A stretch of DNA of 46,526 nucleotides from positions 78,394-124,919 of the forward strand of contig JAGVUB010000164.1 in NCBI GenBank assembly GCA_019136515.1, written 5' to 3'. This DNA is from Verrucomicrobiota bacterium. GTDB lineage: Bacteria > Verrucomicrobiota > Verrucomicrobiia > Opitutales > Opitutaceae. Below, one piece after another: positions 2,986-45,545 of this stretch. How positions within the stretch are numbered: position 1 is the first letter of the stretch; each line of letters opens with the position of its first letter. The translations under genes and the position numbers were made by a program. Below the pieces are notes generated by a model. That model was not told the DNA's origin and made no database searches. It was given only the letters and a program-made list of their open reading frames with translations.

Positions 2986-4482
2986 TCACACGAGGGCGGT
3001 GCGGTCGAGGGCGCGGTACTGGATCGCCTCGAGCAGGTGCGGGGCCTCGATGTGTTCGGCGCCGGCGAGATCGGCGATGGTGCGCGAGACCTTCAGGATG
3101 CGGTCGTAGGCGCGGGCGGAGAGCGAGAGCTGGTGCATCGCGTGCTCGAGCAGGTCGCCGAGCATGGTGTTGTGCGCGCAGTGGCGGCGGATCTGGGCGG
3201 GTGTCATGCGGGCGTTGCTGTGCGTGCGGGTGCCGGCGAAGCGCGCCTGCTGCACCGTGCGCGCGGCCTGGACACGGGCTCGGATGGCGGCGGAGCTCTC
3301 GCCGAGGCGATCGGAGCGCAGCTCGGCCACGGAGAGCGACGGCGCCTCGACATGGAGATCGATGCGGTCGAGCAACGGCCCGCTGACGCGGGCGCGGTAG
3401 TTCGCGTCGCCGAGGTAGCCGCAGGGGCAGGGGTTCATCGCGGCCACGAGCATGAAGCTGGCGGGGAGCGTCACCTTGCCGGCGCTGCGGGAGATGGAGA
3501 CCTGGTTGTCCTCGAGCGGCTGGCGGAGCACCTCGAGGGCGGAGCGCTTGAACTCCGGCAGCTCGTCGAGGAAGAGCACGCCGTGGTGGGCGAGCGAGAT
3601 CTCGCCGGGGCCGGGGATGGCGCCGCCGCCGATCAGGCCGACGTCGGAGATGGTGTGGTGCGGGGCGCGGAAGGGGCGGGCGAAGGTGCGCAGCTCGCCG
3701 TGGAGCGTGTGGCCGGCGGCGCTGTGGATGGCCAGCATCTCGAGGAACTCGTCGAGCAGCGGCGCTGGCATGATCGTGGGGATACGTTTCGCGATCATCG
3801 ACTTGCCGGAGCCGGGCGGCCCGACGAGCAGGAGGTTGTGGTTGCCGGCCACGGCGATCTCGACGGCGCGCCGCACGGCCGCCTGGCCCTTGATCTCGGC
3901 GAAGTCGGGGGCGCCCTCGGGGTCGGCCGCCGGTGACGGCGCGGTGGCCGGAAGCGGCGGGAGCGCGAGCTGGCCGGCGAGAAAGCGCACGGCCTCGTCG
4001 AGCGTGCGAACCCGGTACACGGGCATGCCGGCGACCAGTGCGGCCTCCTCGGCGGAGACGGGCGGCAGCACCACGCCGCGCTTGCCGAGCCGGCGGGCGA
4101 GCAGCGCCATGGCCAGCGCGCCGCGCACGGGCCGCGTGGCGCCGGAGAGCCCGAGCTCGCCGGCGATGAGGTAGTCGCCGATGGCGTCGGCGGCGAGTTG
4201 CCCGGTGGCGACAAGCATGCCCAGCGCGATGGGCAGGTCGTAGCAGGGGCCCTCCTTGCGCAGATCGCCGGGCGCGAGGTTGATGGTGGTGCGGGTGCGC
4301 GGCGGGTGCAGCCCGCTGTTGGCGAGGGCGGAGCAGACGCGGTCGTCGGACTCCTTGACGGCGGCGTCGGGCAGGCCGACGAGGATGAGGCGCGGATCGC
4401 CGGATTCCCCGGTGTTGACCTCGACCTGCACGGGAACGGCCTCGATGCCCTGGAGCGCGGCGGAGAAGATGGTGGCGAACAT
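2986..4482 (-). CDS. comM: YifB/ComM family Mg-chelatase-like AAA+ ATPase
   Basis: 498 residues, the standard size for this family. The N-terminal ChlI-like fold (about 1-170) includes the family hallmark [10 protein letters not shown] and [11 protein letters not shown]. The AAA+ core has Walker [10 protein letters not shown], Walker [11 protein letters not shown], and the sensor region [11 protein letters not shown] with paired Cys. A C-terminal Mg_chelatase_C helical domain ends in [12 protein letters not shown]. In Gammaproteobacteria ComM is a hexameric helicase that helps branch migration during natural transformation; elsewhere the role is unproven. The start is the ATG complementary to 4480-4482; a much longer open frame upstream is a high-GC artefact because family homology begins at [13 protein letters not shown] heptamer repeat array lies about 110 bases upstream. 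Confidence 0.93.
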
Positions 4483-4591
4483 ACGGCGACGGGGTACGCG
4501 CCGGGGGGCTGGCGGGTAGTGGAATGCCGGAGCCGTGGAATGCCGGAGCCGGCGGCGCGGGGCAAGCCGGGAAGCGCGGGCGGTCGCAGAC

Positions 4592-4633
4592 GGTGCCCTG
4601 TGGTCGGTTGCCGGTGGTCGCTGGACTGTCGGC
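4592..4633. repeat. GGTNNNC heptamer array D (6 units)
   Basis: Six contiguous 7-base units in register: ggtgccc, tgtggtc, ggttgcc, ggtggtc, gctggac, tgtcggc. Their pattern matches the larger arrays at 34.4, 35.2 and 38.8 kb. It shares the run gtggtcggttgccggtgg with the 35.2 kb array. It lies in the divergent intergenic region between comM (minus) and coaE (plus). Seven is not a multiple of three and the units do not form a credible peptide. Confidence 0.7.
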
Positions 4634-23466: not shown

Positions 23467-28467
<5,001 letters not shown>

Positions 28468-33362: not shown

Positions 33363-34361
33363 TCACGTGCAGGCCATGCCGAGCGGGAGCTCGCAGTTGG
33401 GGCGGGCGATCACGCCGGGGTAGGGCTCGGCGGCGAAGGGGATGGTGGGATCGCGCAGAAGGTGCTCGTCGCACACGGCGAAGAGCTCGGCCTCGGTGCG
33501 GGCGTGGCGCATGGCGCGGAGAAAACGGCTCTCGGGGTCCACGCTCTGGGCGACGAAGTTGAGGTACTTCTTCAGCTTGCCGGTGCGGGCGAACTCGGGG
33601 GCGGCGGGGTTGGCGGTGGCGCGGTGGAGCCGGTCGATGTACTCGCGCACGTCGCCGAGCGTGGGCGCGAAGACGGGTTCGCCGGCGGAGTGCTCGCGGA
33701 GCTGGCGGAAGATCCAGGGATTGCGGATGGCGTGGCGGCCGACCATCACGCCGGCGCAGCGCGTGGCGGCGAGCACGGTGGCGGCCTTGGCGGCGGAGGA
33801 GATCTCGCCGTTGGCGAGCACGGGGCAGCGCAGGCGCGCGGCGGCGCGGGCGGCGTATTCGTAGTGCGGCTCGCCGCGGTAGAGTTCCTTCACGCTGCGG
33901 CAGTGCACGCTCAGCAGGTCGACGTCGTGTTTGTCGATCAGCTCGAGGAGCGCGTCGAAGGTGGCGCCGTCGTCGAAGCCGATGCGGGTCTTGACGGTGA
34001 AGAGGCCGGGCGTGGCGGCGCGCAGGGTGCGCAGGATCTCGTCGACCTTGGCGAGGTCGCGGTGGAGGCCGCCGCCGACGTTCTTGCGGTAGATCTTCGG
34101 GGCGGGGCAGCCGAGGTTGAGGTCGATGCCGGCGATGGGGAGCTTGAGCAGATCGGCGGCGGCGCGGGCGAGGTCGGGCAGGCTCTCGCCGATGAGCTGG
34201 GCGAAGACGGGGCGGCCGGTCCGGTTCTCCGTGATCGAGCGGACGATTTGGTCCTCGAGGCGCGAAGTGGCGTGGACGCGGAAGAACTCGGTGACGAAGT
34301 AGTCGGGTGCGCCGTAGTGCGCGCTCACGCCGAAGAAGGCGAGGTCGGTCACGTCCTGCAT
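33363..34361 (-). CDS. dus: tRNA-dihydrouridine synthase
   Basis: Flavin enzyme reducing uridine to dihydrouridine in the tRNA D-loop. 332 residues from the only standard start. Seen: APMQDVTD at the FMN phosphate loop, LNLGCPAPKIYRKNVGGGL with the catalytic Cys, VKTRIGFDD, SVHCRSVKELYRGEPHYE, PVLANGEI and GVMVGRHAIRNPWIF. The Met of APMQD is normally internal, preceded by 10-15 residues. In frame upstream the sequence reads LRPGLPLTALAP, which looks like the true N-terminus, but no ATG, GTG or TTG precedes it before a heptamer repeat array. The real start may be a rare CTG, or the 5' end may be damaged. The Dus subgroup (A, B or C) is not assigned. Confidence 0.9.
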   Translation of the reverse strand: MQDVTDLAFFGVSAHYGAPDYFVTEFFRVHATSRLEDQIVRSITENRTGRPVFAQLIGESLPDLARAAADLLKLPIAGIDLNLGCPAPKIYRKNVGGGLHRDLAKVDEILRTLRAATPGLFTVKTRIGFDDGATFDALLELIDKHDVDLLSVHCRSVKELYRGEPHYEYAARAAARLRCPVLANGEISSAAKAATVLAATRCAGVMVGRHAIRNPWIFRQLREHSAGEPVFAPTLGDVREYIDRLHRATANPAAPEFARTGKLKKYLNFVAQSVDPESRFLRAMRHARTEAELFAVCDEHLLRDPTIPFAAEPYPGVIARPNCELPLGMACT

Positions 34362-34407: not shown

Positions 34408-34540
34408 AGTTGCCGGTGGACGGTGAGCGGTGGACGGTCGCCGGTGGGCGGTGGACTGTGGTCGGTGCTCAGGAGATGGGTACCGGTGGACGGTAAACGG
34501 TGGGCGGTGGACAGTGGGCGGTGGGCGGTGCGCAGCCGGC
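34408..34540. repeat. GGTNNNC heptamer array A (about 19 units in register)
   Basis: Tandem 7-base units running in one register: ggtggac, ggtgagc, ggtggac, ggtcgcc, ggtgggc, ggtggac, tgtggtc, ggtgctc, two degenerate units (aggagat, gggtacc), then ggtggac, ggtaaac, ggtgggc, ggtggac, agtgggc, ggtgggc, ggtgcgc, agccggc. Bases 1-3 and 7 are nearly fixed while 4-6 vary, mostly among purines. It begins 47 bases upstream of the dus start and ends about 95 bases past the DUF151 stop. It is the longest of four such arrays. Confidence 0.85.
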
Positions 34541-34634: not shown

Positions 34635-35132
34635 TCAGAACGGCTTGTCGTTCTCGTCTTCCTCGTCGTCGGCGTCGTCCTCCTCGTCCTCGTTCTGCTG
34701 CTTGAGCACGCGTTCGAGGATCTCCGTCATGTCCTCGACGGCGTCGTAGACGGCGCGGGCGACGAAGACGGGCTTCTTCTGCTGGAGGGCGAGGACGAGG
34801 GAGTCGCTCGGGCGGGCGTCGACCTCGATGATCTTGCGGCCGAGCTCGTTGGACATCGTGAGGATGATGCGAGCGAAGAAGGTGCCGTTGTCGACGTCGT
34901 TGATGACGACACGCTCAAGCACGACACCGAGGCCGAGGAAGATGTTGCCGATGAGATCGTGGGTGAGCGGCCGGTCCTTCTTCACCCCCTGCATCGTCAT
35001 GGAGATGGCGTTGCCGACGGAGTGGTCGACGTAGATGACGAAGTTCTTGTCGTCGTCGCCGAGGAAGACGGCGCAGCCGTTGGCGGTGGGCATCACGCCT
35101 TTGACGGAGACTTCGACAACATCGTTCTGCAT
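34635..35132 (-). CDS. DUF151/bifunctional nuclease family protein
   Basis: 165 residues. It begins MQNDVVEVSVKGVMPT; the core NGCAVFLGDDDKNFVIYVD, LTHDLIGNIFLGLGV, LERVVINDVDNGTFFARIIL and IIEVDARPSDSLVLALQQKK is the DUF151 (BFN) signature. It is followed by a strongly acidic tail (NEDEEDDADDEEDENDK). In other bacteria DUF151 proteins have been linked to nuclease activity or to uncharacterised UV/stress roles; the activity here is unproven. The ATG complementary to 35130-35132 is the family start; the longer upstream frame runs through a repeat array and is spurious. It lies between dus and a DEAD-box helicase on the same strand. Confidence 0.9.
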   Translation of the reverse strand: MQNDVVEVSVKGVMPTANGCAVFLGDDDKNFVIYVDHSVGNAISMTMQGVKKDRPLTHDLIGNIFLGLGVVLERVVINDVDNGTFFARIILTMSNELGRKIIEVDARPSDSLVLALQQKKPVFVARAVYDAVEDMTEILERVLKQQNEDEEDDADDEEDENDKPF

Positions 35133-35183: not shown

Positions 35184-35253
35184 GAGGGACGGTGGGCGGT
35201 ATCCGGTTGCCGGTGGACGGTGGGCGGTGGTCGGTTGCCGGTGGGCGGTGGGT
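35184..35253. repeat. GGTNNNC heptamer array B (about 10 units)
   Basis: In-register units: gagggac, ggtgggc, ggtatcc, ggttgcc, ggtggac, ggtgggc, ggtggtc, ggttgcc, ggtgggc, ggtgggt. It begins 52 bases upstream of the DUF151 start and abuts the double-hairpin element at 35255. It shares gtggtcggttgccggtgg with the array at 4592. Confidence 0.82.
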
Positions 35254-35343: not shown

Positions 35344-37062
<1,719 letters not shown>

Positions 37063-37234
37063 GCGGGACTGTGTGGGGGTGGGGGCGGGAGAGCAAGGCG
37101 CGGGAAGCGGTGCCGTAGAAATGGGCGGAGCGGGGCGAGCCGGAGTGCGCCGGCCGCGCAGAGCGCGGGGTGCCGGCGCGGTTTCGGGACCTGCCTTGAC
37201 AAAGCTGGGGGCGGGCGGTTGCCTCGGCCGCTTC

Positions 37235-37582
37235 ATGAACATTTTGATCGTTGTCCTGACTTTTCTGCTCGTGATCGTCTCGCTGTTCCTCGGGCTGCTC
37301 GTGCTTGTGCAGAAGCCCCGTTCCGATAGCGGTCTTGGCACGGCGATGGGCGGCGGCGTGGCGGAGGCGACCTTTGGCGCCGAGACCGGCAACGTGCTGA
37401 CGCGCTCGACGATCGTGCTCGCGGTCGCCTTCTTCGTCCTGGGTTTTGGTGCCTATCTCGGCCAGATCTATGTGGTGAAGCATAAGGACAAGTCGGTCGA
37501 GAGCCTTCCGACGGCCCCGGTGTCCACCGCGCCCGCCGCCCCGGCTCCCGAGGCCGTGCCGGCCCCGGCCGCGCAACCCTGA
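37235..37582 (+). CDS. secG: Preprotein translocase subunit SecG
   Basis: 115 residues; small inner-membrane partner of SecYE that stimulates protein export. Helix one is ILIVVLTFLLVIVSLFLGLL, then the conserved cytoplasmic loop VLVQKPRSDSGLGTAMGGGV and ATFGAETGNVLTR, then helix two IVLAVAFFVLGFGAYLG. The Ala/Pro-rich tail (about 30 residues) is typical of this phylum's SecG. ATG 37235 is the only start that keeps helix one. A TTGACA hexamer at 37196-37201 is a candidate -35 box, but the -10 match 17 bases on (ttgcct) is poor. The next gene follows after 23 bases. Confidence 0.94.
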   Translation: MNILIVVLTFLLVIVSLFLGLLVLVQKPRSDSGLGTAMGGGVAEATFGAETGNVLTRSTIVLAVAFFVLGFGAYLGQIYVVKHKDKSVESLPTAPVSTAPAAPAPEAVPAPAAQP

Positions 37583-38514: not shown

Positions 38515-38754
38515 TCAGTTGGTGCGGCGGTGTTCGCGGATGGTGGCGACCACGATGCCGGTGCCGGGCGCCCAGATGAAGAAATAGAAGCCGAGCGTGC
38601 GCGCCCCGGTGAGGGCGAGGTCGCCCGGCGGCACCCGACTGCCGGACCACGCCCCGACGAGCGGCCACAGGACTGCGCCGAGGATCGCGCCGATGCCGGT
38701 GATGAGCGCGGTCACCCCGAGCGTGATGGCGCAGAACTGGAGGACGGGCTTCAT
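38515..38754 (-). CDS. Small two-helix membrane protein
   Basis: 79 residues. The first hydrophobic segment is LQFCAITLGVTALITGIGAI (continuing LGAVLWPLVGAW). A polar loop (SGSRVPPGDLALTG) is followed by a second segment (TLGFYFFIWAPGTGIVVATI) and a basic tail. No family recognised. The coding evidence is a clean pair of membrane helices and an ATG (complement of 38752-38754) without competing starts. A heptamer array begins 5 bases upstream of this ATG, so its leader is repeat sequence. It is convergent with the LolA-like gene, with 42 bases between stops. Confidence 0.6.
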   Translation of the reverse strand: MKPVLQFCAITLGVTALITGIGAILGAVLWPLVGAWSGSRVPPGDLALTGARTLGFYFFIWAPGTGIVVATIREHRRTN

Positions 38755-38758
38755 GGGC

Positions 38759-38828
38759 GGTGGACGGTGGACGGTGAGCGGTGAGCGGTAGGCGGTAGGC
38801 GGTAGGCGGTGAGCGGTGGACAGAAAAC
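38759..38828. repeat. GGTNNNC heptamer array C (10 units)
   Basis: In-register units: ggtggac twice, ggtgagc twice, ggtaggc three times, ggtgagc, ggtggac and a decayed agaaaac. It contains the most homogeneous stretch of the four arrays (three identical units). It starts 5 bases upstream of the small membrane protein's ATG. A detached trio (ggtggac, tgtgggc, ggtgaag) lies at 38883-38903, beyond the conserved motif. Confidence 0.87.
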
Positions 38829-44982: not shown

Positions 44983-45545
44983 ATTGAGGCGTATGTGCGT
45001 GCGGTCACCAATGGCACCGATTTGTGGCGAGTTTTGCCATTAGGCAGTTGATGTCCATCGATGGTCTCGGCGCTTTCGGTCGCAAGCTGTCGATGACCTG
45101 GACCTGAGGACGCGGAAAGCGTGGCGCGGCGAGGCGAACCTTGAGGGTTGTGTTCAACCTTGAGGGTTGTGTTCGCCCGGAGCGCAGCGGAGCGGTGAAC
45201 ACAACCATTGTTGAACAAGCTCGGGGCGGACCGGAGACGAAGCCTCAATCACCGAAGGACTGAACGGAGCGCGCGGCGAGGACGCCGACTATGCGCTTTG
45301 TGTTTTCCGCGTTGTTGTCCGGCGGACGGCATCGCGGCGGGTTGAGGTGATCGTCGGTCGCCGATTGGGCCGGTGCGGCAGACCGCGGAGGACCGGGGAC
45401 AGGCGACGGAGCCGCGGAGCGAGGGCAAAACACGTGGCGTCGCCGAAGAACGGGCCCGCGGGCGCAAAGCGGCGGCTGCCGCGTAAAGCGCGTTCGCGCC
45501 ACGCGGCTGAAAACCGGACCAGGGAGACGGAGTCGGTGGGCGGCT
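44983..45545. other. Long intergenic region, probably the non-coding end of the decayed IS91-like element
   Basis: 563 bases without a gene I can support; short open frames here have no recognisable motifs. It contains the tandem and inverted repeats described separately at 45137-45206, then G/C-rich sequence up to the transposase remnant's stop. Similar non-coding tails follow the transposase in IS91-like elements, so part of this may belong to the element; the outer boundary was not located. Confidence 0.4.
45137..45206. repeat. 19-bp perfect tandem repeat plus 10-bp inverted repeat
   Basis: aaccttgagggttgtgttc occurs twice head to tail (45137-45155, 45156-45174). Its last ten bases, ggttgtgttc (45165-45174), pair perfectly with gaacacaacc (45197-45206) across a 22-base loop. 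A short palindrome TTGTT-g-AACAA follows at about 45209-45219. The gaac and caag tetramers recall IS91-family insertion-site preferences, so this may be one end of the element whose transposase remnant begins 340 bases away. That link is inference. Confidence 0.6.

Follow-up and report, generated by a model that had tools for sequence, protein, structure and literature searches.

Strand-polarised arrays of degenerate heptamers in Opitutaceae genomes, with multi-unit slippage as a possible origin

The GGTNNNC tandem arrays of the window (the whole stretch of 46,526 nucleotides that was analysed) represent one dialect within a broader period-7 phenomenon in Opitutaceae. They belong to a class of degenerate heptamer arrays present in all four sampled genomes of the family, in which the purine-rich strand is mostly the G-rich strand of the chromosome, and multi-unit slippage anchored on CGG(T) is an origin that we judge about equally likely to be right or wrong. 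The strand polarity is a new observation, absent from an earlier note on this DNA in which the arrays of the window were described. Congruent with the remark made there that no account of the CGGT-NNN form in this type of genome was known, our literature search, with most subscription papers beyond its reach, found no description of such arrays or of strand-polarised heptamer arrays in Verrucomicrobia.

Heptamer arrays in the window and among relatives

A two-mismatch scan of the window yielded 31 GGTNNNC matches, as compared to a mean of 0.34 and a largest count of 4 in 100 shuffles, far from the equal frequency in shuffled sequence that the earlier note had named as evidence against its arrays. 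Three of the four loci it proposed are strong (Table 1), and the longest array holds its register through the degenerate stretch just as described; the array at 4592 is in register but weak, and was not called by the array scorer. All four (4592, 34408, 35191 and 38759) are placed between called genes, with the calls originating from a small custom script. The array at 34408 separates the dus and bifunctional-nuclease genes and runs on the strand opposite to both, while the one at 38759 begins only 4 bases away from where a small minus-strand ORF with weak support (38515-38754) starts. The array at 4592 is flanked by a minus-strand gene that ends at 4482 and by the CoaE gene, the latter missed by the script. 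The short array at 27821 is located within a large called gene of the minus strand (23467-28467), antisense to it. Scans of the window against Rfam (gathering thresholds) and for tRNAs gave no match. Other tandem repeats of the window include a perfect 16-bp tandem of 2.1 copies at 4519-4551, in which GGAATGC occurs, a word belonging to a different heptamer family in this genome, and a perfect 19-bp tandem duplication at 45137-45174 with less AT-rich surroundings.

Table 1. Heptamer arrays of the window and some neighbouring genes
Feature	Position	Strand	Details
Weak array	4592..4633	+	3/6 units intact; in register
Short array	27821..27844	+	one mismatch to the four-core pattern
Dihydrouridine synthase (Dus)	33363..34361	-	Pfam PF01207, E 1.8e-43
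Longest array	34408..34533	+	18 heptamer units, one register, degenerate middle included
Bifunctional nuclease domain protein	34635..35132	-	Pfam PF02577
Array	35191..35253	+	9 units; between bifunctional-nuclease and DEAD-box helicase genes
DEAD-box RNA helicase with DbpA domain	35344..37062	-	Pfam match on the longer ORF 35344-37392
Array	38759..38821	+	9 units

The genome-wide search proposed along with the arrays returned 104 exact matches to the five-core pattern in this genome (G000; 4,114,243 bases in 202 contigs) versus 0 for the reversed control. A sister species of the same genus (G002) has 135 five-core matches and another member of the genus (G001) has 0; altogether the pattern is present in five of 38 genomes, G000 included. 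Class-wide, GGTNNNC was matched in 31 of 384 genomes (G000 included) and the reversed control in 38 of 384 by table count, and thus GGTNNNC is not favoured at this level. Many of the class-wide matches listed are uniform microsatellites, and mixed units are also found, among the matches listed, in G400, G405, G221 and G143. For named genome contigs, the exact mixed-unit pattern matched seven stretches, five of which derive from one Opitutaceae assembly; the other two are one Kribbella stretch, with 4 units, and one from an Actinomycetes bin, in which no array passed the scorer. A looser pattern matched eight viral contigs, with one short array called in seven of them, and a plasmid search with the spacer between the Dus and bifunctional-nuclease genes gave a single record, a 14-bp tandem in Nonomuraea. 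Nonomuraea gerenzanensis (L267, NZ_LT559118.1 near 7.79 Mb) carries GGTGGTC AGTGAGC six times, a regular 14-bp tandem that resembles two fused heptamers.

Comparison between species was possible for the 11 of 56 arrays whose two flanks could both be placed in the G002 stretches used. An array was called in G002 at nine of these 11 loci, in either orientation, and orthologous arrays of the two species differ in unit number. The longest array of the window has an orthologue in G002 and no counterpart in the equivalent spacer of G001, and the G002 spacer corresponding to the array at 35191 is without a called array. In one G001 spacer examined, neither an array nor an insertion footprint was evident. 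As judged from their first 150 bases, the G002 contigs C32 and C115 start inside an array or a few tens of bases away from one, and arrays may therefore break short-read assemblies and be under-counted.

A wider period-7 phenomenon

Motif-free detection in G000 recovered 89 lag-7 tracts in 750,636 bases, a sample in which many stretches had been selected for arrays, as compared to 1-4 at lags 4, 5, 8, 10, 11 and 13. Counts were high at lags divisible by three (36-41 tracts) and at lag 14 (70). Period-7 tracts of other heptamers, such as GGAAGGC/TGAAGGC, GGCTGAA and AGTTGAG, were found in G001 (26 in 209,350 bases) and in G005 (18 in 400,000 bases), and samples of 100 kb each from E. coli and Nonomuraea contained none. 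G000 itself harbors further degenerate families, such as GGANTGC, RGANGAC, GTAGYGR and GGCGARA. Stretches L037, L041, L042, L048, L050, L055, L104, L105 and L107 carry such other families, which share the polarity of GGTNNNC with few exceptions. The arrays are clustered, with 26 of 56 stretches holding any, as follows also from the low yield of the 556,338 bases of G000 stretches that were not selected for arrays (5 lag-7 tracts and 1 array).

Strand polarity

Strand skew was separated from gene direction through the third-position GC skew of the genes on each strand. In G000, 52 of 55 arrays are oriented along the G-rich strand of the chromosome (37/40 spacer arrays and 15/15 coding arrays). 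Taken contig by contig, most main arrays follow this strand in all 20 contigs; the votes for the contig-level sign test were entered by hand from the array data. In G002 the same holds for 53 of 60 arrays. The three exceptions in G000 comprise a GGTNACC-type array, an array that calls of the opposite orientation overlap and a weak array, and five of the seven in G002 come from a single stretch whose skew estimate is weak. Arrays of GGTTTCC/GGTCTCC were considered as further exceptions and dismissed, since read on the other strand (GGARACC) they agree, in 12/12 cases in G002 and 2/2 in G000.

The polarity extends to lag-7 tracts irrespective of their family: the purine-rich strand coincides with the G-rich strand for 74/77 tracts in G000, 97/105 in G002, 17/19 in G001 and 8/9 in G005. 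These counts include clustered tracts, which are not independent, and omit stretches with |R| < 0.05 and tracts with little purine skew, and therefore cover 19 of 26 tracts in G001 and 9 of 18 in G005. In other spacer windows the two strands coincide at fractions of.67 (G000),.70 (G002),.67 (G001) and.60 (G005). A purine-matched background of G000 predicts 59.4 of the 77 tracts to be on the G-rich strand; thus, composition accounts for much, not all, of the polarity. We rejected the idea that the neighbouring genes alone set the strand of spacer arrays: both neighbours are on the array strand for five arrays, three of which follow the G-rich strand, and the two that lie off it are weak calls.

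The G-rich strand is probably the leading strand, because the ribosomal L2 gene resides on it and ribosomal operons are usually co-oriented with replication. This placement of L2 is found in G005 and, judged by the neighbouring 18 kb, in G000, where R is -0.08 in the ribosomal half of contig C147 and +0.18 in the next 18 kb. The dnaA gene was rejected as an origin marker, as it sits inside a skew arc in G005, off any skew switch. On the closed chromosome of G005 (L209-L228), skew switches are found at 0.9-1.2 Mb and 4.2-4.5 Mb, and dnaA at base 410.

Unit structure and likeness between units

For motif-free scoring, each tract was compared with its own modal unit (59 tracts with 537 units in G000, 69 tracts with 743 units in G002). 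Across positions G, G, T, N, N, N and C, the match to the mode is.83,.91,.81,.65,.77,.49 and.87 in G000 and.74,.86,.77,.72,.78,.60 and.86 in G002. The earlier note had regarded GGT and the final C as fixed and bases 4-6 as free. C-G-G is indeed the firmest part and positions 4 and 6 are freer, but position 5 comes close to T3 in constancy, and the CGG(T) anchor is consequently not sharply bounded. The commonest variable triplets are GGA (58), GGG (56) and TGC (33) among 297 intact units of G000, and GGA (136), GGG (38) and AGA (29) among 298 of G002. This vocabulary is common to unlinked loci within a species and differs between the two.

Growth in whole units with later point mutations, as had been proposed from the register of the longest array, is not borne out in its simple form, since adjacent units agree in their variable triplet more rarely than permutation of the arrays would give. 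Identical adjacent triplets number 24/248 in G000, against a permutation mean of 32.8 (P(null<=obs).028), and 68/281 in G002, against 82.4 (.015). The near-identical neighbours expected from single-unit slippage are thus not the general pattern in either genome, rendering simple single-unit slippage a poor account, while multi-unit slippage may still apply. Identical triplets are on the other hand in excess at longer lags. In G000 this is seen at lag 6 (19/70, permutation mean 9.8, P.005), and in G002 at lag 2 (83/245, P.020) and lag 3 (70/195, P.018), with uncorrected P values from five lags in each of the two genomes. The lag-6 excess may derive largely from one array, and a six-unit block occurs twice in one G000 array (L046 6527-6624). 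Identity is slightly higher within than between arrays (.137 vs.106 and.304 vs.258 in the two genomes), and uniform arrays, e.g. of GGTTTCC, also occur.

Placement in spacers and coding sequence

The placement census covered 55 main arrays in 1,006,976 bases of G000, 79% of which are coding. The intergenic placement claimed earlier stands as a preference rather than a rule, with 40 arrays falling in spacers and the other 15 within called coding sequence; per base, spacers are enriched about tenfold, and coding regions do not carry arrays as often as spacers, the outcome that had been named as contrary evidence. The coding arrays are nearly all antisense (14/15), which is to be expected given that AGN and GAN units would produce stop codons in one sense frame. 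Ten called proteins carrying arrays were scanned, all of which have Pfam matches; array-bearing proteins include ZnuA, an Fe-S protein, a class I methyltransferase, RsmB/F, a DUF748 protein and secreted-type enzymes. As 7 and 3 are coprime, the encoded peptide has a seven-residue period (PATDNRQ type), and the heptamer repeats here are thus read as seven-residue linkers inside proteins. In RsmB/F, the array fills a loop of variable length that is nearly absent in some homologues, as seen in an alignment of 22 sequences of 120 listed. At the same loop (alignment A3, columns 401-460), array-less homologues have other, unrelated inserts, some of them mutually alike.

Possible origin of the arrays

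In the slippage explanation that we favour, the nascent 3' end would re-pair at least one unit away through the contiguous C-G-G-T. Units that keep this anchor would join later slips while their remaining bases drift, and the core could persist without needing a function, because anchor-keeping units stay able to slip. Slips of at least two units would copy blocks of units, which fits the G002 excess at lags 2-3, the G000 excess at lag 6 and the deficit at lag 1. Arrays would survive where a change of length is tolerated, presumably in spacers, after likely signal peptides and in protein loops, and the polarity may be caused by asymmetry of the replication fork. The period-7 excess, the change of unit number between orthologues, the lag excesses, the six-unit block repeat, the tolerance-like placement and the polarity support slippage. 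Counting against it are the unlike neighbours, an anchor without sharp bounds and the part of the polarity that composition accounts for, as well as the shared species-specific vocabulary, which slippage alone leaves unexplained. Period, degeneracy, clustering, copies in coding sequence, polarity, the unlikeness of neighbours and the survival of arrays of altered length at orthologous loci are direct observations, whereas slippage, the role of the anchor, the assignment to the leading strand and neutrality are inferred.

A more tentative reading is that a strand-specific process coupled to the replication fork writes purine-rich heptamers on the leading strand. Such a generator would keep a short contiguous anchor, avoid identical neighbours and give rise to species dialects, in spacers as well as in frame within proteins. 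The period-7 arrays of Opitutaceae would offer a natural system for testing whether the replication fork sets the seven-base step.

We consider it unlikely that selection holds the core, with a DNA-binding protein (or an RNA-binding protein acting on the transcript) contacting CGG(T) at 7-bp intervals near genes while the remaining positions are neutral. Such a role agrees with the identity between G000 and G002 per unit position,.84,.89,.61,.58,.59,.52 and.81 for the 11 mapped arrays, where positions 1, 2 and 7 are kept above the flanks (.66) and the rest range from.52 to.61. It also agrees with the enrichment in spacers, and with 25 of the 37 spacer arrays that have an opposite-strand gene start on that side being at most 213 bases from it, although these distances hang on the custom gene caller. 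However, T3 is not conserved between species, copies reside inside protein genes, and G001 of the same genus is without a GGTNNNC match. Moreover, several unrelated heptamer vocabularies have a common period and polarity, which weighs against one dedicated binding protein in the choice between a repeated binding site and a slippage-driven element that the earlier note had left.

Copying between loci, through gene conversion or an unseen mobile mechanism that spreads arrays and keeps a species-wide vocabulary, is doubtful. The shared vocabulary is indeed species-specific, arrays occupy loops that are short in homologous proteins, and three array pairs in G002 share runs of at least six units (shuffle mean 0.45, largest 3). 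In G000, however, a single array pair shares a run of at least four units against a shuffle mean of 0.8, and the G001 spacer without an array is also without an evident insertion footprint. Shared unit runs between loci were hence set aside, there being no excess in G000 and a slight one, at six units or more, in G002.

Equally doubtful is a function of the arrays as directional markers read by a DNA translocase or an enzyme of recombination, akin to AIMS, KOPS or Chi. The strand polarity exceeds matched composition and the commonest units contain GGTGG, which resembles the Chi sequence of E. coli. Nevertheless, the arrays are clustered, their words vary within arrays, and GGARACC and other families have the same polarity. 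That they represent G-quadruplex elements like the Xanthomonas and Nostoc heptamers is highly improbable: they are likewise G-rich spacer heptamers often opposite to the strand of the adjacent gene, a placement that the accessible text of PMC4692102 also reports, but a fixed GGG per unit was not found in the unit frequencies of G000 or G002 (a second GG is present in 142/297 and 186/298 intact units), and hairpin folding of the G-rich strand of three window arrays shows just a mild advantage over shuffles (z -1.2 to -2.0, in folding without a quadruplex model).

Comparison with known systems

A seven-base period above chance, enrichment outside genes and a unit number that changes between relatives place the arrays in the class of heptameric tandem repeats (SSR/STRR). 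The STRR heptamers of cyanobacteria are short tandem heptamers as well, with other sequences and in other hosts. One of these has been described inside a functional gene (Vioque 1997, as cited in the accessible text of PMC2858038).

The nearest known systems are the Xanthomonas/Nostoc heptamers, GGGNATC and GGGGA(C/T)T (Rehm et al. 2015, PMC4692102), and the TAACTGA repeats of Beggiatoaceae (MacGregor 2015, PMC4679880), both compared here on the accessible text of these sources. The former are degenerate seven-base tandem units in many copies, enriched in spacers, often opposite to the strand of neighbouring genes and kept between species with changed length, in all of which they are alike to the GGTNNNC arrays. 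In contrast, their core is another one, with a fixed GGG where GGTNNNC arrays have only GG, and that text reports no leading or lagging preference for Xanthomonas, as opposed to the strong polarity found here; in GGTNNNC arrays, furthermore, the non-core positions are widely variable and neighbours are unlike. The over-representation of heptamers among bacterial tandem repeats is discussed in the same text as an open question. The TAACTGA repeats are also direct repeats of seven bases, found mainly ahead of start codons, but consist of one fixed word, whereas the Opitutaceae arrays combine variable words, several families and polarity. Finally, architecture imparting sequences (AIMS), 8-base words that rise in frequency towards the terminus (Hendrickson et al. 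2018, PMC5993296, accessible text), share a preference for one replication strand, for GGTNNNC probably the leading one, yet are single words rather than clustered tandem arrays of mixed words.
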